Below, piece after piece: positions 16,997-57,974 of a stretch of DNA of 64,000 nt. The first letter of the stretch is position 1. Each line of letters begins with the position of its first letter. The stretch covers positions 1 through 64,000 of the forward strand of contig NZ_VUNS01000018.1 in NCBI RefSeq assembly GCF_009695545.1, in the 5' to 3' direction. Source of the DNA: Victivallis lenta. Its GTDB lineage: Bacteria > Verrucomicrobiota > Lentisphaeria > Victivallales > Victivallaceae. A program made the position numbers and the translations under genes. The notes under the pieces were generated by a model, which was given only the letters and a program-made list of their open reading frames with translations, did no database searches and had not been told where the DNA came from.

Positions 16997-17073
16997 GGGG
17001 GAGTAGCTCAATTGGTTAGAGTACCACCCTGTCACGGTGGATGTTGCGGGTTCGAGCCCCGTCTCTCTCGCCA
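16997..17073 (+). tRNA. tRNA-Asp (GTC), copy 1
   Basis: A complete cloverleaf of 77 nt with encoded CCA. The acceptor GGGGGAG pairs with CTCTCTC (two G-U pairs), the anticodon loop CTGTCAC gives GTC, and the T-loop is GGTTCGAGCCC. It is identical to the second copy downstream. Confidence 0.95.
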
Positions 17074-17125: not shown

Positions 17126-17202
17126 GGGGGAGTAGCTCAATTGGTTAGAGTACCACCCTGTCACGGTGGATGTTGCGGGTTCGAGCCCCGTCTCTCTCGC
17201 CA
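17126..17202 (+). tRNA. tRNA-Asp (GTC), copy 2
   Basis: Same 77-nt sequence as the first copy, including the encoded CCA, 52 nt downstream on the same strand. The two are probably processed from one transcript. The spacer sequences differ, so this is a tandem duplication of the gene only. Confidence 0.95.
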
Positions 17203-35100: not shown

Positions 35101-36195
35101 CTCGGGCGGCGCGTCGTAGCCCGCCGCCGGTTCGATCGAGACGCCGCCGCCGGTCGGCAGCGAGATCGCGTCGAGCTGCCGGTTGATTTCGAAGAGATTC
35201 ATGTTCGAGCGCGGCAAACTGCGGTAATAGCTGCCGCCCATGACCTGAAAGCAGAGCCGGGCATCGGGAGCCAGGCCGCGGATGGTTTCGACGCCGAGCT
35301 TTGTAAGCTCGATGAAGCCGGATTCCATGAACTTCGACCAGTCGACGAAGAGCCCGCGGTTCTCATTCGCGGTCCTGAAGTTTGCGGCCGATGCGAAATC
35401 CGGGTAGCTGCTGCCGTAGGCCTGGTTCATCGCCCCGGGCGTGCCGTACCGTTTTTCGAGAAATCCGGCGAACAGCTTCCGGTTGTACGGACTCGGGTCG
35501 TCGTAGGCCGGTTCGTTGAAGAGTTCGCAGAGCATGAGCGGATTGCCGCCCTGCTGCAGCTCCCGGACGCCCGCTTCCCAGATCATGCGGTAGAGTTTTT
35601 TTCCTTCGGGATGGAACGGATTGTACGGGACCCAGTGGTTGTTGGCCCGGGAGCGGTATTCGTTGACTGCTCCTTCCGGCAGCCGGGCGGCGAATGCCGG
35701 ATCCTCGGCGATTTTTCCGTGGCCCCACGGGAAGGCCGTGAAGTCCACAAGGGTCGGCAGCCCGTTCGTCTGCACGGCTTTCCCGGCCGCCTTGTTTTTT
35801 TCGGAGAACGCCTTGTCGCGGAATTCCGGGAAGATTCGCCTGATCCAGTCGGTGGCGGTGAAAACGGCGACCGTGTCGAAGCCGAGGCGCTGCGCGTTCC
35901 GATAGGTCAGCGGTTCCTCGTAGAGCCATTTCAGGCTTGCGTCGTAGCCGCTGGTCGGAGCGATGTCGTCGGCCGAGCTGCCGGTGACGCTCTGCACGCC
36001 GAGCAGGTAGCGGATGCGGCCGTTCACCAGATAGTTGCCGTCCGCGTCGACTGCAACCTCCGGCTGAGGAGCGAGGACGACTTCGGCGGGAAGCTGTTCG
36101 ACCGGCGGAAATGTTTCGTCCTCCGCTGCGGGAACGGGGACGGCGGCCGGCAGAAGGGCGAGACAGACGAGACAGACGGAAATTGCGGATTTCAT
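32161..36195 (-). CDS. Very large secreted glycoside hydrolase, GH42-like core with C-terminal beta modules (cassette 3)
   Basis: 1344 residues with a signal peptide (MKSAISVCLVCLALLPAAVP, cleaved before AEDE). The TIM barrel (about 45-420) has LCELFNEPAYDD with the likely acid/base Glu, and NPEAYTGSNYRS is a candidate nucleophile segment. A region around 440-620 looks like the amidotransferase-fold trimerisation domain of GH42 (EEQLPEGRLGRYKAVVAVGV). The last 600 residues are repeated beta-sandwich, CBM-like units. It overlaps the upstream gene by 4 bp (ATGA). The substrate is probably a beta-linked polysaccharide; this is uncertain. Confidence 0.75.
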   Translation of the reverse strand: MKSAISVCLVCLALLPAAVPVPAAEDETFPPVEQLPAEVVLAPQPEVAVDADGNYLVNGRIRYLLGVQSVTGSSADDIAPTSGYDASLKWLYEEPLTYRNAQRLGFDTVAVFTATDWIRRIFPEFRDKAFSEKNKAAGKAVQTNGLPTLVDFTAFPWGHGKIAEDPAFAARLPEGAVNEYRSRANNHWVPYNPFHPEGKKLYRMIWEAGVRELQQGGNPLMLCELFNEPAYDDPSPYNRKLFAGFLEKRYGTPGAMNQAYGSSYPDFASAANFRTANENRGLFVDWSKFMESGFIELTKLGVETIRGLAPDARLCFQVMGGSYYRSLPRSNMNLFEINRQLDAISLPTGGGVSIEPAAGYDAPPEYAGSAPAVHSGVTEGILMRAFFRALADGKPMHNPEAYTGSNYRSTLNRIWLDFVRGSNATYLFEWSKRAWDWEPAGSEEGGRRIAEKFPWMILNPYAYPAADFRSIMDAKKEIFRFAEYFAPRSRNIPCETAVLLSHPTERMAGAVPIPARNEITTAAGALAFTHRPFDAVLEEQLPEGRLGRYKAVVAVGVRNTLPGTAEALRRFVEAGGILIAGREFMTEDEYGRPSDAAGLFAGLSFEKNENAGLEEISFAVPRPAALPGRLAGRNTVRMKLSGNWKVLGSCGDTPAFAVRKLGQGAVYVFTPQLQDYALGALLGTALERHGIRPALDLVRHPQGDLAVNVEAHAAKRGGTTLFYLFNWDGYPKLVELALPPGSSAADLIRNRALPVRNGRALQLLEPQNRAIIGAGGKAELEAAFGPLPPLTRSELEREADALAAAVRAERAARAAAAFRYEVDPAQTAPLDLREHCNRGFADSVAGDGKGGWTDQGRDNSLGGVPWGTLEFLGVPCELIRFDQNDNRTCIMLHSKSVRSELPVSVENIPVNAKVRSLVFFHTAAWFQNGREAMRYRIRYASGRTLELPVVCGENIGDWWMGSANYAVNHLVAWKNRENRGFYGWRWVNPAPEDEIRSFDIVGNDGEIVPAVLAVSAERYDGRAAAVPVRIGQPALSGFGGIAAEQRDGLVRAVVTEKTGPWGGLMLHAKDFRPLVRRPGLLERGTLRFEVNGGCDQFGNARGGQKIQLTLLAAGRDFRQNRHGAMQNLENGLAEKAVDNDPATFQEVRIPLSRFGKLPENANGLFFQLRGDNSSGFEIRDIVIELPEEDDPPPVPVRTERLLPVNPKELYAIGQVRVQAENGGVAVQTAAESGPWSGFITHFAPLPDITPEEWKNGSLEFELDGGKTGGQQLQFTLSDRRTKQNSRQVSAGKIVPGRQTVTLPLGAFAVDGRAPEVTSLMVQFQADKSGIAPFTMGPARIVTVK

Positions 36196-37721
36196 GAAAG
36201 CGGTTCCTTTGCAAGTTCGATCGGGCCGAGGTCGTACCGGAAGCCGTCTCCGCCGTAGAGCGGCAGCCGGATCGGCCGGAGGTCGGCGAGACGGCGCATG
36301 CCGACAGCCAGCCGGAAACGTCCCGGCGGCAGGCCTGGCGGCAGGTGCAGTTCCGTGCGTTCCCCGGTTCGTTCCCCCGGCGCCCAGGCGAGTGTGGAGG
36401 TCGGCAGGATGGGGGCGGTCACGCTCTCCCAGACGGTTTCGCCGTTCTCGGCGACGAGGGCGTAGAGGATGCCGAAGTCGTCGTGCGGCTTGGCGGCGCC
36501 GCGGTTCTCCCAGTAGCTGGTCAGCACGGCGGTTTCGCCGGGCCGGAGCGCTGCCGGATAATGGAGCTCGGCGGGCAGCAGGCGGTAGCCGGCGATGCGG
36601 GCTGCGTCGTACTGCACGCGCTGCCGGAGCTCCGGTCTGCCGCGCGTTCCGTCGAGGTAGTGGCGCTTGCCGAGCGGATCGTAGTTTTCCATGCGGCGGA
36701 AGCAGTCGTCGTCGAGTTCGCCGATCCGGCACTCCGGCAGTCCCGGCAGCTCGCCGCCGCGGTTCGTGTAGGAGGCGTGACAGCGCCGCAGCGTTTCGAG
36801 CTCGGCGGGAGCATGGAAGGTTGCGATGTTTTCGACGATGAGCCTGACCCGGTCGTGATAGGCGCGGCAGTAGTCGACGTACCATCCTTCGATGAAGGGG
36901 TCGCTCCCCCAGCGGTCCCAGTTGGCGCCGAGCCCGTTGTATTTGAGGTTGATCCCCTCCGAAACGAGGTACGGCACGAGCTCCTTCGCCTGCACGAGCG
37001 AAATCGGTTCCGCGCCGCAGCCGGGGCAGGGGGTGTTGTAGCTCGGGTTCCCGAGCTCCTGGAAAATCGGCTTGTCCGGGAAGGCGGCCTTGAATGCGCC
37101 GGTCAGGTGTTTCAGCGCCGCCGTGTAGCGTTTGAGGGTGAAGCCGGCTTCGGCCCAGGGGCGGATCGGCGTGTGCTCCGACAGATGCATCTCGCCGAAA
37201 TGGCCGAGAAACCCCTGAAAGACCATCTCGACTGCCGGATTGCGGTTGTAGCGTTCGCCGAAGGCCGCGATGAAATTCGCGCTTTTTTCGAGATAAACCG
37301 GGTCCCAGTAGACCGGGTAGCGGCGCGGCGGCCCGTCCGGAGGACCGGGTTCGTCGATGAATCCTGCTCCTGCGTCGAAGACCCATTGCGGCGTTCCGTC
37401 ATTGCGGAAAGTGCCGTTTGCGCCCATTCCGCGAATCTGCAGCCCGACCTTGAATCCGGCGTCGATCCAGCTCTGCATGCAGCCTTCCCACGCCGGATTC
37501 TCCCAGTCGAAGCGGCCCTCTTCCGGTTCGACGACGCTCCAGGCGACGTCGAAGATGATCTTGTCGGAGAGCGGCCGGGAGAGAAACCATTCTCCGGGAG
37601 CAAGCTCGTCGAAGCGGACTTTACGGTGTCCGCGCTGGAGGAACAGGTAACCCATGCCGGGATTCAGCAGCACTTCGCCGCTGTCGGCCGGGAAGATTTT
37701 GCGCATGTCGCGGTGATGCAT
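36192..37721 (-). CDS. DUF4832-like TIM-barrel protein, putative glycosidase (cassette 3)
   Basis: 509 residues, no clear signal peptide. It starts with LLNPGMGYLFLQRG and later has SDKIIFDVAWSVVEPEEGRFDW, typical of a clan-A-like TIM barrel. Glu-rich strands such as FGEMHLSEHTP and PIFQELGNPSYN could hold catalytic acids. A C-terminal beta domain begins near RLLPAELHYPAALRPGE. It resembles DUF4832-type proteins of unknown activity. AAAGGAG stands before ATG 37721, 15 bp after the prepilin-like gene, and the stop overlaps the giant GH gene. Confidence 0.65.
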   Translation of the reverse strand: MHHRDMRKIFPADSGEVLLNPGMGYLFLQRGHRKVRFDELAPGEWFLSRPLSDKIIFDVAWSVVEPEEGRFDWENPAWEGCMQSWIDAGFKVGLQIRGMGANGTFRNDGTPQWVFDAGAGFIDEPGPPDGPPRRYPVYWDPVYLEKSANFIAAFGERYNRNPAVEMVFQGFLGHFGEMHLSEHTPIRPWAEAGFTLKRYTAALKHLTGAFKAAFPDKPIFQELGNPSYNTPCPGCGAEPISLVQAKELVPYLVSEGINLKYNGLGANWDRWGSDPFIEGWYVDYCRAYHDRVRLIVENIATFHAPAELETLRRCHASYTNRGGELPGLPECRIGELDDDCFRRMENYDPLGKRHYLDGTRGRPELRQRVQYDAARIAGYRLLPAELHYPAALRPGETAVLTSYWENRGAAKPHDDFGILYALVAENGETVWESVTAPILPTSTLAWAPGERTGERTELHLPPGLPPGRFRLAVGMRRLADLRPIRLPLYGGDGFRYDLGPIELAKEPLS

Positions 37722-43164: not shown

Positions 43165-47013
<3,849 letters not shown>

Positions 47014-47021
<8 letters not shown>

Positions 47022-47039
47022 AATACCGGGTATGTGAAA
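47014..47039 (+). repeat. Inverted repeat, left arm, switch 1
   Basis: The 26-bp sequence is a perfect inverted copy of 47465-47490. It contains a crossover-site-like layout: 9-bp imperfectly symmetric arms (TTGCGCATA and the inverse of TTTCACATA) around an 8-bp centre ATACCGGG. It encloses the start codon of the prepilin-like gene. Confidence 0.9.
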
Positions 47040-47062
47040 CGAAACAGCATTGCCGCCCGGCG

Positions 47063-47085
47063 AAAAAGCGCGGTATGCGCCGCGC
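47063..47085 (-). terminator. Minus-strand intrinsic terminator inside switch 1
   Basis: On the minus strand GCGCGG-(6 nt)-CCGCGC is followed by five T. It lies 42 bp upstream of the prepilin-like start codon in the current orientation and would block transcripts arriving from the regulator gene. After inversion it would point the other way. Confidence 0.6.
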
Positions 47086-47358
47086 AGCGGATGTGAACGG
47101 ACTGCACGGTTCGGCGGCAGCCGAAGCGGGCAGCGAGGAGCAGGTGCGACGAAGGTGAACGCAGCGGAGCGAAGGCCCTCTGCCGCAGCCCGCGAAGCGG
47201 GCGGTGAAGAGTTGGCCGCCGCAGGCGGACAAGTAAGGAGGACAAAGTCCTCCGCCGCGGGCGGTAAGGGCGCAACCCACGGGAAATGAAAGCCCGGCAC
47301 AGAGTAAGAAATGGGGGTGCGGGGGAAATGTATTTCCCCCGCGAATCCCACGACAATG
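47063..47358. repeat. Conserved non-coding core, copy 1
   Basis: 296 bp that match 56425-56720 with two substitutions by eye. It has several hairpins, among them GCGGGGGAAA-TGTA-TTTCCCCCGC (47319-47342) and GGAGGAC-AAA-GTCCTCC (47237-47253). Reading frames are not kept relative to the flanking genes, pointing to a structural or RNA role. Confidence 0.8.
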
Positions 47359-47430
47359 AAGACGGACGAGACCAGGAAGAGCAAACAGAACAATTTTGCC
47401 GCCAGAGGCCGAATAAATTCATTTAACCAA

Positions 47431-47446
47431 AAGGAGTTACATCATG
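47431..47446 (+). promoter_or_regulatory. Outward ribosome binding site and start codon in switch 1
   Basis: AAGGAG (47431-47436), 7 bp, ATG (47444-47446). The frame reads [15 protein letters not shown] across the right repeat. In the present orientation it continues into meaningless sequence antisense to the LacI-type gene; inverted, it continues as KPFTLIELL of the prepilin-like protein. Confidence 0.7.
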
Positions 47447-47464
47447 ACAGACCGCATACGGAAA

Positions 47465-47490
47465 TTTCACATACCCGGTATTATGCGCAA
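47465..47490 (-). repeat. Inverted repeat, right arm, switch 1
   Basis: Perfect 26-bp inverted copy of 47014-47039. Flanking bases differ on the two sides, so the repeat ends are sharp. Confidence 0.9.
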
Positions 47491-47512
47491 TCGCGGTTAT
47501 ATTGCGGCATAT

Positions 47513-47548
47513 TCACAAAAGCTCGAGCCGTGTAAATCTTTTTTTCAT
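47513..47548 (-). pseudogene. Apparent remnant of a prepilin-like gene start
   Basis: On the minus strand AAGGAGG is followed 7 bp later by an ATG frame MKKRFTRLELL and a stop. This resembles the first residues of the prepilin-like proteins ([10 protein letters not shown]). It sits 49 bp after the LacI-type stop codon, where the prepilin-like start lies in intact cassettes. It may be the original gene start left behind when the segment entered. The match is short, so chance is possible. Confidence 0.45.
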
Positions 47549-47597: not shown

Positions 47598-48599
47598 TCA
47601 GGCGGACGGGGCCGGTGCCGCCGATTCGCGGCGCACGAGTCTGCCCGGAATGCGGATCGAATAACCGAGATATTCGTCCGGATTTTCGAGTTTTCCGACG
47701 ATCATGCGGGCGGCGGCGGCGCCCATTTCCGCCCCCGGCACCGCGAGCGCGTCGAGCGGCGGAATCGCAAAGCTCTGCGATGGAACGTTGTTGAAGGTGA
47801 CCACGCTGAGCCGGCGCGGAATCTCCACGCCCCGGCGCCAGGCGTAGTAAAGAACCTGCCGGGCCAGTTCGTCGTTGTAGCAGACGACGGCGGTGATCTT
47901 CTGTTTCAGCAGCTCGTCGAACTGGGCTTCGACCGGCGAGTACTTCCACGGTTCGCTCTGGAACTCCTCGAGGCCGTACTCCTCGCAGAACTCCGCGTAA
48001 CCGCGCTTGCGGTCGTTGTAGCTGTGGTGGTGATTGCCGGGCACAAAGCCGTCGAGATAGCCGATGCGGCGGTGTCCGAGCGCGTGCAGGTGCTCCATCA
48101 CGAGGCGCATGTTGGCGGCTTCGTCGCTCATGACCGCGCTGCCGGATTTGCCGCAGATGCCGTTGACCACGACATACGGGATTCCGGCCTCTTCGATATT
48201 CCTGAGCTGGCGCGGGTAGATCACGTCGGGCACGATCAGCCCGGCGACTTTCCACTCCGGCACCGGGTAGTAGAGGTTCCGGACCGACTCGCAGGGAATG
48301 AAGTTGAAGGTGTAGTTCAGCTTCGGCAGTTCGCGCGAAATCACATCGACCGCGTCGGAGACCGGGTTGGTCTGCCGCAGCAGGTTGCGGTCGTAGAACA
48401 GAAACGAAATCTGGCTGTTCTCCTTGTTCCGCAGCGAACTGAAAACGCGGTTCGGCCGGTAGCCGCTGGCTTCGATCTGCTCGAGAATGCGTTTCCGCAG
48501 CTCCGGCTTCACGGAGAAGTTCTTGCTGCGGCCGTTCAGCACCCGGCTCACGGTGGAGGGCGAAACCTTCAGCTCCTCGGCGATTTCCTTCAATGTCAT
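47598..48599 (-). CDS. LacI-family transcriptional regulator (cassette 4)
   Basis: 333 residues: HTH at the very N-terminus (LKEIAEELKVSPSTVSRVLN, residues 3-22), then the sugar sensor domain (VAGLIVPDVIYPRQLRNI). It heads cassette 4 with a strong promoter and two related palindromes about 100 bp apart, allowing DNA looping as for LacI. The glycosidase of the cassette is probably its target. A candidate invertible segment lies between it and the next gene. Confidence 0.92.
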   Translation of the reverse strand: MTLKEIAEELKVSPSTVSRVLNGRSKNFSVKPELRKRILEQIEASGYRPNRVFSSLRNKENSQISFLFYDRNLLRQTNPVSDAVDVISRELPKLNYTFNFIPCESVRNLYYPVPEWKVAGLIVPDVIYPRQLRNIEEAGIPYVVVNGICGKSGSAVMSDEAANMRLVMEHLHALGHRRIGYLDGFVPGNHHHSYNDRKRGYAEFCEEYGLEEFQSEPWKYSPVEAQFDELLKQKITAVVCYNDELARQVLYYAWRRGVEIPRRLSVVTFNNVPSQSFAIPPLDALAVPGAEMGAAAARMIVGKLENPDEYLGYSIRIPGRLVRRESAAPAPSA

Positions 48600-51347: not shown

Positions 51348-52703
51348 TTATCTGGAAAAACGCGGGTCGATGACGTCGGCCAGCGCGTCGAAGAGTTCGT
51401 CGGTCATCGACCGGATCTCGTCGAGTCCGAGCTTGCTCTGCGTATTCGGGTCGGCGGCGATGGCGTGGAAAATTGCGCGCCGGTCGCCGTCGAGCGCGCC
51501 TTGCGCGCCGAGGATCTGGGCGCCGACCATGCCGCGGTCGATTGCGGCGAGCTGTTCGGGGAAATCTTCGATTCTGCCGGGGACGATGCCGCCGCCGTCC
51601 ACGAGACACGGCACTTCGACGCAGCATTCCGGCGGCAGCGTCGCGATGAGTCCGCGGTTCATGACGTTCAGATTTGCGGCGAGCGGCCGGTTTTTCTCGA
51701 TGGCCGCGATGATCTGGACGCCGTACTCGACGCTTGACGCGAGGTCGATCTCGCGGCTCCCGTCCAGATATCCGGCAATCTGTTTTTCGTTGCGGATCTG
51801 GAGTCCGCGGCAGATCTGCACCGATGCGCCGGAGACGCCGGCGCTCATTGAATTCCAGTCGATGCCGTTTTCGTCCACCTCCGGGAAATCGTTGCGGCAG
51901 AAGCGGTCGATCAGGTCCTGTCGTTTGCGGAAGTACGGCAGGTATTCGCTGTTGTGTCCGCTGCTCTCGGTCGGGAAGTAGCCGAAGTGGCGCAGAATCT
52001 CGAAGCGGACTTTCTCCTTTTTGTAGATTTCCGGCCGGTCGAGGCAGGCGCGGAGTTTCGGATAGAGGTCCTGCCCGTCCGCCTCGAGTTTCAGCAGAAA
52101 CGCCATATGGTTGACGCCGGCGGCAAGGAAGCGGAGTTTTTCGTACGGCGTTCCGGTCCACTCCGCAATCTGCCGCGAAGTGTGCTGCACGCTGTGGCAG
52201 AGCCCGGCGACCCTGACGGTCCGGGCGCGCCTGGAGAGCGCGATGGTGTTCATCGACATCGGGTTCACGTAGTTCAGCAGATATGCGCCGGGACACTCCT
52301 GCTCCATGACCTCGAGAACTTCAAAGAGATCCTTCAACGTGCGCAGTCCGCGAAAAATTCCGCCGGGGCCGAGCGTGTCGGAGACGACCTGGTCGACGCC
52401 GTATTTCATCGGGATTTCATACTCGAGTTCCTGGTGCCGGATCGTCCCGGAGCGGAAGATCGTGATGACGTAGTTCGCGCCGTTCAGCGCTTCGCGGAGG
52501 TCGGTCGTGGCGTGCGGGGTGAAGCGGATGCCGAGCTTTGCCGCGATGAGCCCGGCGACGGCGACCGCGTTGGCCAGCCGCCCGGCATCGATATCCATCA
52601 GCGTGACCTCGTGCGTCCGCAGCTCCGGGTCGGTCAGGATATCCTTGAGAAAATTTTGGGCGAAGATGACGCCGCCCGCGCCGACCAGTACGATTTTCGA
52701 CAT
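51348..52703 (-). CDS. GH4 family alpha-galactosidase/6-phospho-glycosidase-type enzyme
   Basis: 451 residues. GH4 enzymes use NAD+ and Mn2+ in a redox-elimination mechanism. The NAD-binding start KIVLVGAGGVIFAQNFLKDI, the NYVNPMSM block and the CHSVQHTS metal-site Cys/His are present. The pattern is close to alpha-galactosidase MelA or alpha-glucosidase types; it has no signal peptide and is cytosolic. GGAGG six bases before ATG 52703 decides the start. An AraC-type gene lies divergently 109 bp away and probably controls it. Confidence 0.88.
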   Translation of the reverse strand: MSKIVLVGAGGVIFAQNFLKDILTDPELRTHEVTLMDIDAGRLANAVAVAGLIAAKLGIRFTPHATTDLREALNGANYVITIFRSGTIRHQELEYEIPMKYGVDQVVSDTLGPGGIFRGLRTLKDLFEVLEVMEQECPGAYLLNYVNPMSMNTIALSRRARTVRVAGLCHSVQHTSRQIAEWTGTPYEKLRFLAAGVNHMAFLLKLEADGQDLYPKLRACLDRPEIYKKEKVRFEILRHFGYFPTESSGHNSEYLPYFRKRQDLIDRFCRNDFPEVDENGIDWNSMSAGVSGASVQICRGLQIRNEKQIAGYLDGSREIDLASSVEYGVQIIAAIEKNRPLAANLNVMNRGLIATLPPECCVEVPCLVDGGGIVPGRIEDFPEQLAAIDRGMVGAQILGAQGALDGDRRAIFHAIAADPNTQSKLGLDEIRSMTDELFDALADVIDPRFSR

Positions 52704-52744
52704 GAAAGCCTCCATGAATTGCATTTTTGCGTCTCGATGCCTAT

Positions 52745-55614: not shown

Positions 55615-56382
55615 TTACATCATGCGCCGCTCGAGCTGCTTCGTGATGACCTTTCTGACCTGCATGACGCCGTTGCGGAGTTCGGACGAATTCCTGCGGG
55701 CCGTGTGGCCGTCGATGAAGGAGACGTTTGCCGAGTCGTGATGGCCGAGCCAGATGCCGGAATCGGTTCCGCCGGACGGCACGCCGACGCCGTTGCTGAT
55801 GTGGCTGTACTGATTGATGCCGCGCGGCACCTTGAAATAGTCGCCGCTGCCGTACTGGGCGGTGTCGGCATAGACGTGCAGCTCGCTCGGCCGCCGGACC
55901 TTGTTGACCATATAGAACACGTTCGCCGAGTTGATCATGTTCATATATGCGCCGGTCTTGTCGGTGTTGTTCGTGTAGCTGGTATCCCAGACGCCCATGT
56001 ACATGCCGTTGGTCTGCCAGCCGTCGAACTGCTTCGAGTCGGCGCCGATATGGAACGGGCAGACGAGCACCTGCTTGCTGCCGGGGGAGATGTAGCTGGC
56101 GAATTTGGAATCCGGCGTGTAGTCCCAGTTCGGGGCCGCGTTCAGCTTGACGCCCAGAAGCACGTCCCCGAAGGGGCGTCCCATGGTGTTGACGACCATC
56201 CGGCCGTTGTTGTCGCCGGAATACATGAGCTGTGCGGCGATCACCTGCTTGTGGTTGCCGGTGCACTTCGCGTCTTTCGCCCGGTCCCGCGCCGAGTTCA
56301 GCGCCGGCAGCAGCATCGAGGCGAGGATCGCGATGATCGCAATCACGACGAGAAGTTCGATCAGGGTAAAAGGCCTGCGCAT
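55615..56382 (-). CDS. Prepilin-type N-terminal protein (cassette 5), start inside an inverted repeat
   Basis: 255 residues from ATG 56382: MRRP, then [16 protein letters not shown] and [11 protein letters not shown]. The late motif is [12 protein letters not shown]. The ATG has no ribosome binding site and lies within the 27-bp repeat 56375-56401, exactly as in cassette 4. After inversion of 56375-56847 the gene would gain AAAGGAG, an ATG and 13 extra residues (MKNRNRKLHIPSI), in frame. It is probably silent in this orientation. Confidence 0.85.
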
Positions 56383-56401
56383 AATAGAGGGTATGTGAAG
56401 C
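56375..56401 (+). repeat. Inverted repeat, left arm, switch 2
   Basis: 27 bp, a perfect inverted copy of 56821-56847. Same layout as switch 1 (arms CTGCGCATA and CTTCACATA), but the centre reads ATAGAGGG instead of ATACCGGG. Confidence 0.9.
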
Positions 56402-56422
56402 CAGATGGCACAGATGCCCGGC

Positions 56423-56447
56423 AAAAAAAGCGCGGTATGCGCCGCGC
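56423..56447 (-). terminator. Minus-strand intrinsic terminator inside switch 2
   Basis: The same GCGCGG/CCGCGC hairpin as in switch 1, here followed by seven T on the minus strand, 41 bp upstream of the prepilin-like start codon. Confidence 0.65.
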
Positions 56448-56720
56448 AGCGGATGTGAACGGACTGCACGGTTCGGCGGCAGCCGAAGCGGGCAGCGAGG
56501 AGCAGGTGCGACGAAGGTGAACGCAGCGGAGCGAAGGCCCTCTGCCGCAGCCCGCGAAGCGGGCGGTGAAGAGTTGGCCGCCGCAGGCGGACAAGTAAGG
56601 AGGACAAAGTCCTCTGCCGCGGGCGGTAAGGGCGCAACCCACGGGAAATGAAAGCCCGGCACAGAGTAAGAAATGGGGGTGCGGGGGAAATGTATTTCCC
56701 CCGCGAATCCCGCGACAATG
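56425..56720. repeat. Conserved non-coding core, copy 2
   Basis: Matches 47063-47358 with two substitutions by eye, while the DNA on either side inside the segments is only loosely similar. Confidence 0.8.
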
Positions 56721-56788
56721 CAGACGAACAAAATAAGAAAAGCAGATAGAACAATTCAGCTGCCGCAGGCAGAAAACTTATTTAACCC

Positions 56789-56803
56789 AAAGGAGTTGTC
56801 ATG
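56789..56803 (+). promoter_or_regulatory. Outward ribosome binding site and start codon in switch 2
   Basis: AAAGGAG (56789-56795), 5 bp, ATG (56801-56803). It encodes a basic leader (MKNRNRK) ahead of the shared HIPSIMR. Confidence 0.7.
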
Positions 56804-56820
56804 AAAAACCGGAACAGAAA

Positions 56821-56847
56821 GCTTCACATACCCTCTATTATGCGCAG
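56821..56847 (-). repeat. Inverted repeat, right arm, switch 2
   Basis: Perfect 27-bp inverted copy of 56375-56401. Confidence 0.9.
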
Positions 56848-56888
56848 AAAAGTACGGCATTGATCTGAATATTGTGGAGAGCCGTCCT

Positions 56889-57974
56889 TTACTTTCCCGC
56901 CTTTCCAAGTTGAGGAACATTGATGTTTTTCACGGTTTTGCCGAAATGAATCTCCGGAGTGATGATATAGTGCGTCGGTGCGTTTTTCACCTGCTCGAAA
57001 TGCTCTTTGACGAGACGCACCGCATAGTGGGCGACCCGGTCGCGGCGGCTGTTGATCGTCGTGAAGTCAAGTTCGGACTCACGGGAGCTTCGGCCGAGCG
57101 TGATGAGGCTGAAATCTTCCGGGATGTCGAGTCCGTACTCGCGCGCCGTCCGGGCGATCTCCTGCGCCGGGAGCTCGGAGAGGACGAACAGCCCTGTGAA
57201 TCCCGGTTCCGGATTCGCTTCCAGATACCGCCTGAAGAACTCGCCGCTTTTCGTCGGGGAGTGTTCTCCCACCCTGATGTGCGGATTCAGCACTTCGATG
57301 TCGAGCCGGTACGCCTCCGCGCATTTCAGGAACCCGGCGATACGCTCCCGGACCAGCGGGACTTCCGGCTCCGAAACCAGAACCGCCAGTTTGCGGTGCC
57401 CGTTCATCAGCAGATGCGTCGCGGCCAGCATTCCGCAGAATTCATTGTCGTTGTCGACATACCGGCACCCTTCGACCCGGACCGTTCCGTAAAGAATCAC
57501 CACGGGAACCGGCTGGGCCATCATCCGGTTCAACTGGTCGGGCGTGATCGGTTCGTGACCGTACGGCATGAACAGAATCGCATCGGCCTTGAGTTCCGGC
57601 AGCATCGCGATGCCCGCGGCATTGCTCGGCATATCCACGATGATCTGTTCGAATCCGGCGGCAGAGGTTTCGCGCAGCAGCAGCCCGGGAAACTCCCAGC
57701 GGAGATTCGATATTTCAGCCGGGATCAGGCAGGCGATTTTTCCGTAACGCGGCGCATGGCGCACGAAGTAGCCGCGCCGCTCCTGCGCTTCGAGCACGCC
57801 CGATTCGCAGAGTCGCTCCATCGCCTGCTTGACCGTGATCTGGCTCACGTTGAACTCGTCCATGATCTGCCGGACCGACAGGAATTTTTCGCCGATGCCG
57901 AGCTTCCGGCAGCGTTCTTTCAAGTGCTGCGTCAGCTGATCCGCGCGGCTGAACCTGATATTGTTTTCGACCAT
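56889..57974 (-). CDS. GntR-type winged-helix / LacI-type sensor transcriptional regulator (cassette 5)
   Basis: 361 residues: GntR winged helix (about 8-72, FLSVRQIMDEFNVSQITVKQ) followed by a LacI-like sensor domain (KIACLIPAEISNLRWEFPG). It heads cassette 5. Its promoter is framed by two copies of the palindrome AATAC-W-GTATT, so it likely represses itself and the downstream genes. AGGAATC or similar weak sites precede ATG 57974. Confidence 0.9.
   Translation of the reverse strand: MVENNIRFSRADQLTQHLKERCRKLGIGEKFLSVRQIMDEFNVSQITVKQAMERLCESGVLEAQERRGYFVRHAPRYGKIACLIPAEISNLRWEFPGLLLRETSAAGFEQIIVDMPSNAAGIAMLPELKADAILFMPYGHEPITPDQLNRMMAQPVPVVILYGTVRVEGCRYVDNDNEFCGMLAATHLLMNGHRKLAVLVSEPEVPLVRERIAGFLKCAEAYRLDIEVLNPHIRVGEHSPTKSGEFFRRYLEANPEPGFTGLFVLSELPAQEIARTAREYGLDIPEDFSLITLGRSSRESELDFTTINSRRDRVAHYAVRLVKEHFEQVKNAPTHYIITPEIHFGKTVKNINVPQLGKAGK

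Follow-up and report, generated by a model that had tools for sequence, protein, structure and literature searches.

We regard it as highly probable that the locus analysed here is a reversible DNA-inversion switch of a pseudopilin gene, that XerC/XerD most likely flip it, and that its 296-nt core is filling. In the proposed mechanism, two dif-like 28-bp sites stand inverted around a segment of 0.1–0.45 kb (up to 0.8 kb in Victivallis vadensis), with the XerC-type half outside and the XerD-type half inside. Strand exchange in the 6-bp spacer by a tyrosine recombinase of the Xer type would flip the segment; the housekeeping pair XerC/XerD is the most likely candidate. In the ON orientation, a Shine-Dalgarno sequence and ATG at the segment end would become the start of a reading frame that crosses the site and continues into the pseudopilin. 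In the OFF orientation, the gene would be left with an ATG lacking a ribosome-binding site, and core-bearing copies would add a terminator-like hairpin facing it. The spacer, common within a locus and different among many loci, would limit crosstalk between switches. The core would have spread by cassette duplication or gene conversion as the filling of the larger cassettes, unneeded for the flip. The sequences themselves show the paired sites with their identical spacers, the occurrence of both orientations, an inversion between two genomes at one locus, and a Shine-Dalgarno/ATG pair presented in one orientation only.

The window (the whole 64,000-nt stretch of DNA that was analysed) contains two such loci. 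At locus 1, the pseudopilin gene (46377–47021, minus strand) matched the TIGR02532 prepilin N-terminal domain with 22.5 bits (cut-off 16.3) and has an H-X9-DG type end; its start codon falls within the inversion site. This gene-side site, TTTGCGCATAA-TACCGG-GTATGTGAAAC (47013–47040, plus strand), shows the 11-6-11 layout when set against E. coli dif, and its inverted distal copy (47464–47491, minus strand) carries the same spacer. The invertible segment between them (47041–47463) is in the OFF orientation and has paralogous copies in both orientations relative to the gene. It encloses the core (47063–47358), which has relatives in the genus that form a dispersed, hairpin-rich repeat, and which holds a terminator-like hairpin, GCGCGG-CGCATA-CCGCGC-TTTTT (47068–47085, minus strand), and a perfect palindromic stem, GCGGGGGAAATGTATTTCCCCCGC (47319–47342). 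Near the distal end lie a Shine-Dalgarno sequence, AAAGGAG, and an ATG (47430–47446, plus strand; ATG at 47444–47446), which inversion would join in frame to the gene. Beyond the switch follow the remains of an earlier pseudopilin start, which has a Shine-Dalgarno sequence of its own (MKKRFTRLELL*; 47513–47548, minus strand), and, upstream, a LacI-family sugar regulator (47598–48599, minus strand; PF00356, PF13377).

Locus 2 has the same arrangement. Its pseudopilin gene (55615–56382, minus strand) scored 22.1 bits with TIGR02532 (cut-off 16.3), and its gene-side site, CCTGCGCATAA-TAGAGG-GTATGTGAAGC (56374–56401, plus strand), differs from that of locus 1 in the spacer, which is repeated in the inverted distal copy (56821–56848, minus strand). 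The segment (56402–56820), also OFF, contains the second core (56425–56720), a hairpin GCGCGG-CGCATA-CCGCGC-TTTTTTT (56430–56447, minus strand), and an AAAGGAG with its ATG (56789–56803, plus strand; ATG at 56801–56803) that inversion would likewise join in frame to the gene. A GntR-type regulator with a sugar-binding domain (56889–57974, minus strand; PF00392, PF13377) lies upstream. The inverted repeats are perfect over 26 nt at locus 1 (47014–47039/47465–47490) and 27 nt at locus 2 (56375–56401/56821–56847), and each includes the ATG of a pseudopilin gene. The earlier note had taken the region for the seat of an inversion reaction, and the analysis bears this out.

The dif sequence of E. 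coli reads GGTGCGCATAA-TGTATA-TTATGTTAAAT, and the sites found here match it at up to 22 of 28 positions. The repeats show the 11-6-11 layout of the 28-bp dif site (PMC5357621), and their half-sites are partly symmetrical and resemble those of dif. Between the sites of locus 1 and locus 2, most of the difference is in the spacer, yet the two arms within a locus agree. A search of this assembly (G000; 5.5 Mb, 78 contigs) for the pattern CATAATNNNNNRTATGT gave 37 exact sites; the reversed pattern gave none, and a control pattern with the gap one base shorter gave 2 exact matches. The sites form inverted pairs, 71–426 nt apart, which adjoin pseudopilin genes, and the genome holds approximately 30 inversion-site pairs. 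The 5-nt core of the spacer was equal within the pair in 28 of 29 scored pairs, with 17 different spacers in all, while 20,000 rounds of spacer shuffling gave a mean of 4.3 equal pairs and a maximum of 12. Insulation between loci would be incomplete, since the spacer ACCGG is common to several of them.

Several further sites were observed. The sites of one cassette (L164; G000:C22:30727–31020) are degenerate, with one spacer a base short, and this cassette is apparently locked in the ON orientation. The ends of contigs C1 (L139) and C30 (L168) look like one switch with the spacer AACGG, and contigs end inside switches in several related genomes too. A candidate chromosomal dif, ACGTCGCATAATGTATGTTATGATAAAT (G000:C19:59193–59220, minus strand, in L218), matches E. 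coli dif at 22 of 28 positions. The cumulative GC skew turns over at approximately 72–79 kb on C19, 13–20 kb from this candidate, which lends it weak backing.

Flipping each segment in silico separated the switches into two classes. At start-type loci, one orientation presents AAGGAG or a close variant and an ATG that in most cases precedes FTLIELL by 17 codons. This ON frame reads through the site into the gene as MTDRxRKxHIPGIM followed by the pseudopilin. In the other orientation, the gene has the site's own ATG without a Shine-Dalgarno sequence, or a start that is weak and far away; some loci thus have a weakly scoring upstream start in the "OFF" orientation as well. Both window loci are of the start type and OFF. 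We infer that orientation sets expression of the gene ON or OFF. At loci of the second class (L137, L149, L151, L154, L155, L161, L162, L163, L167 and L169), the gene has its own Shine-Dalgarno sequence and ATG beyond the site, outside the segment, and inversion may move a putative promoter. A search for sigma-70 promoters found none at locus 1 and a single weak match, outside the segment, at locus 2. The terminator-like hairpins on the minus strand (reading 47085–47068 and 56447–56430) point at the gene in the OFF orientation. A terminator scan found 2 in the locus 1 region against 1.5 expected in shuffles, and locus 2 was likewise barely above expectation; the facing of the gene by this hairpin in core-bearing OFF copies is no more than suggestive.

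Both orientations are represented in the sequences. Within this genome, paralogous cassettes of 95–97% identity lie in both orientations relative to the gene. The clean comparison of an inverted locus concerns one locus in two genomes, one of them (G005) a draft of 140 contigs: between G000:C23 and G005:C19 (L165/L217), the colinear flanks have identities of 98.8% and 99.1%, and the 293 nt that include both sites match at 100%, but with the opposite strand. This locus, a copy without the middle of the core, is ON in G005 and OFF in G000. The 7-kb contig of G005 could come from another strain, and the inversion would then be between strains. In a second pair (G083:C208/G085:C93), the segment is inverted and the gene-side flank is colinear at 72%, with orthology uncertain because the other flank is not conserved. 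Near-identical switch–pseudopilin starts were also seen ON and OFF within one draft genome (G006:C3 and C82; L330, L331, L337). As in an inverton, inverted repeats enclose a segment beside a gene, a locus occurs in both orientations, and the orientation changes, at the sequence level, an expression signal, namely a Shine-Dalgarno sequence and ATG in one orientation. The switch is presumably also reversible in growing cells. It is hardly credible that the elements are plain dispersed repeats of an attenuator- or REP-like kind, ending in hairpins, and that separate insertions or assembly errors produced the opposite orientations. In favour of this are the repetitive nature of the core and the contigs that end within switches, but the spacer identity within a locus, the exact 293-nt inversion between genomes and the in-frame start logic all speak against it.

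The core itself was examined at both loci and genome-wide. The copies at 47063–47358 and 56425–56720 differ, as had been counted by eye, at exactly 2 of 296 positions (47253 C/T and 47350 A/G). The similarity between core and repeats is indeed loose (58% identity on the left, 74% on the right), and the hairpin at 47319–47342 is present. The statement that the core is not coding held for the plus strand, where every frame has stops; the minus strand has all three frames open, which is probably a matter of composition. A coding role was rejected on account of the plus-strand stops and of copy lengths that differ by single bases. When the segment is OFF, the pseudopilin frame is open across nearly its whole length (47063–47358 of the minus strand is stop-free). 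The recurrence of the core at two loci is far beyond chance; however, it has many copies and is no mere pair. The 477-nt element of locus 1 has seven further whole-length matches of 90–97% identity, including locus 2, so that eight full-length copies exist in the genome, in addition to several partial, deleted or shortened ones. The central 111 nt of the core occur at 14 places, 13 of which are inside switches or their relics (the exception being C7:144.8 kb). An alignment of the genome copies showed several that lack the middle of the core and keep an intact site pair.

These copies also bear on the possibility that the elements are mainly mobile cassettes inserting into the 5′ end of pseudopilin genes, with inversion a by-product of their ends. 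Eight near-identical full-length copies are what such cassettes would leave. In addition, a decayed second pseudopilin start (..FTLIELLV-NMSQYNxN..) was observed in the distal flanks of the ACCGG/AATGG family, as if an original start had been displaced, and it is present on the far side of the core-bearing cassettes L138, L140, L146, L152, L153, L156 and L158. The presence of such decayed starts distally (for example at 47513–47548) suggests that cassettes displaced, or were inserted into, older gene starts. As a full account of the elements this is nevertheless unlikely, as the Shine-Dalgarno/ATG logic is precise and in frame, is found in one orientation only, and recurs in unrelated short segments and in other genera.

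The core may be structured without serving the inversion. Folding of the segment is stronger than that of shuffled versions, whichever strand is taken (z of −3.6 and −2.9). Relatives of the central part of the core in V. vadensis (G007), G002 and G003 are dispersed intergenic repeats away from inversion sites and pseudopilins, and compensatory changes affect 14 of 45 predicted pairs among the core relatives of the genus. The occurrence of the core at unrelated sites without inverted repeats, which the earlier note linked to an ordinary dispersed repeat, was thus encountered for its relatives in other genus members, not in this genome. A set of these relatives (L280–L291, in G007, G003 and G002) forms a hairpin-rich intergenic repeat that is not matched by Rfam and whose stems show compensatory changes; the unit in common may be as long as approximately 700 nt in V. 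vadensis. For the core, a search of the window against Rfam returned only two tRNAs at the gathering threshold, and a search by E-value gave no credible match. The two tRNA genes are neighbours with equal covariance scores (16997–17070 and 17126–17199). Since the relatives are dispersed away from the sites and show compensatory changes, the core has structure and a long history within the genus, without specificity for inversion; these relatives are possibly a structured repeat with some other role.

The earlier note had further proposed that the core is kept either by gene conversion or by selection as an RNA or enhancer-like region for the inversion. The first part fits the data: an identical core between diverged ends is consistent with cassette spread or conversion, and the near-identity at the window loci most likely arose by recent spread or gene conversion between cassettes. 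Selection for inversion is not borne out. Related genomes contain switches of 95–109 bp whose sites and start-codon logic are unchanged and which have no core. On this comparison the core is dispensable for the flip, since the locus shown inverted lacks its middle and the 95–109 bp switches have none of it. That the core works as a structured RNA or as a recombinational enhancer, controlling either the inversion or the pseudopilin messenger, is very unlikely. Strong folding, compensatory changes in genus relatives and a core identity above that of the segment ends would agree with such a role; against it, several copies lack most of the core with their site pairs intact, the copy shown inverted is core-deleted, the short switches leave no room for it, and the repeat lies away from switches in relatives. 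The idea of an IS110-like bridge RNA, by which a core RNA would guide recombination to the arms, was set aside because the core-less switches have the same sites and logic.

As for the recombinase, the XerD of this genome scored 364.7 bits, above the cut-off of 329.6. Its XerC-like protein scored 316.8 bits, under the XerC model cut-off of 335.15. Orthologues of XerC and XerD, with 52–64% identity, were present in 6 of 6 other genomes checked. In a survey of tyrosine recombinases (PF00589) that included genomes 56–82% complete, the XerC and XerD orthologues were the only such proteins found in G083, G085 and G094, all of which carry switches. XerC/XerD would likely flip the switches, since they are the only tyrosine recombinases found in these three switch-bearing draft genomes. 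A possible, though doubtful, alternative is that the same switch is flipped by a dedicated invertase, either another tyrosine recombinase or a serine invertase. Most known invertons use one, such as RecV for cwpV (PMC2784873), and this genome has 26 PF00589 matches, including a small XerA-like recombinase on C36. However, the three genomes in which XerC and XerD are the only PF00589 proteins found, and the dif layout of the sites, argue against it. The C36 protein was rejected as the dedicated invertase: neither V. vadensis (G007) nor the rest of the genus has an orthologue of it, and its only matches there are XerC/XerD-like at approximately 30%. We retain XerC/XerD as the inferred enzyme.

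Related switches occur in several Victivallales genera. A search of approximately 85,000 genomes for the site–gene junction pattern gave 17 stretches, all in Lentisphaerota, including Victivallis vadensis DSM 14823. An inverted partner of equal spacer lay within reach in 12 of the 17, and most of these 12 showed the start logic in one orientation. The paired-site pattern occurred in 10 of 137 genomes of the order, and its reversed control in none. All 56 of the pairs compared had equal spacers, a count in which some pairs are the same locus twice and for which the pattern made no demand for equal spacers. In a sample dominated by a few genomes, the site spacings were mostly 105–109 bp, with a few at 95–98 and none at 99–104. 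These clusters suggest that short segments must hold their sites on the same helical face.

Invertible promoters are known in gut bacteria, where inversion controls surface genes. The fimS element of E. coli is inverted by a tyrosine recombinase and controls pilus genes (fim; PMC2784873). In fimS and the gut switches a promoter is inverted, whereas here it would be the translation start (the second class may invert a promoter). In Clostridioides difficile, the cwpV switch is flipped by RecV, a recombinase of the XerC/XerD family that acts in trans and does not adjoin the switch, and the published model places a terminator in the OFF transcript (PMC2784873). Our switches share with cwpV a short invertible segment upstream of a surface-protein gene, inverted repeats (of approximately 21 bp in cwpV), a proposed OFF terminator and, on the probable reading, a Xer-family recombinase that acts in trans. 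They differ in that the ribosome-binding site and ATG of cwpV lie outside the segment, whereas here they lie inside, at many loci; moreover, cwpV is one locus whose repeats have no other copies and which uses RecV, while no dedicated recombinase is linked here (PMC2784873). At the mba/UU172 loci of Ureaplasma, a Xer-named tyrosine recombinase (XerC) similarly inverts surface-protein loci at short inverted repeats, but there are two loci, with no array of variable-spacer sites described, and the putative dif site is bound by CodV and not by the XerC that mediates inversion (PMC3599477).

The 28-bp sites, with 11-bp half-sites and a 6-bp central region, resemble dif/XerCD (PMC5357621) and the pdif of Acinetobacter plasmids (PMC6449649), and variable central regions are already known from dif-like sites. 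However, dif serves chromosome dimer resolution (PMC5357621) and pdif the horizontal transfer of modules (PMC6449649), and these two papers describe neither as a set of start-codon switches. Akkermansia muciniphila, in the same GTDB phylum Verrucomicrobiota, also has many invertons, one of which was shown in both orientations and controls the capsule; its published repeat motif, CGGATT..AATCCG, differs from the dif-like sites found here (PMC13343947, PMC11892184). Switching by inversion, invertases of the Xer family and terminators acting in the OFF state have all been described before (PMC2784873, PMC3599477, PMC13343947). In the literature searched, nothing relevant was found on phase variation in Victivallis or Lentisphaerae. 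As far as that literature shows, the new elements are the Lentisphaerota setting, the presence at dozens of loci of dif-like sites whose spacers are locus-specific, and an inverted ribosome-binding site and start codon.

It is somewhat more probable than the opposite that the housekeeping XerC/XerD system of Victivallales has been recruited to drive phase variation throughout the genome. Pseudopilin genes by the dozen would each carry a dif-like site pair with its own central-region "address"; a helically phased flip of approximately 100 bp, or a larger one, would add or remove the ribosome-binding site and start, and the address would limit recombination between loci and with the chromosomal dif. 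Genes resembling glycoside hydrolase families 4 and 42 were observed in the window (51348–52724 and 36192–37721, respectively), and their presence in one window with the pseudopilin/regulator clusters hints at polysaccharide-use loci. The variation may affect which polysaccharides the cells handle, as the window pseudopilins lie behind sugar-type regulators and glycosidase genes are in the same window. If the proposed reading is true, spacers as addresses and the 9- or 10-turn spacing of the short switches would make the rules of Xer synapsis testable by comparative genomics. Chromosome-segregation recombinases, and not a dedicated invertase, would drive phase variation, with inversion acting on the translation start. 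A little-studied gut lineage would then have a large combinatorial surface variation, with approximately 30 pseudopilins each ON or OFF.
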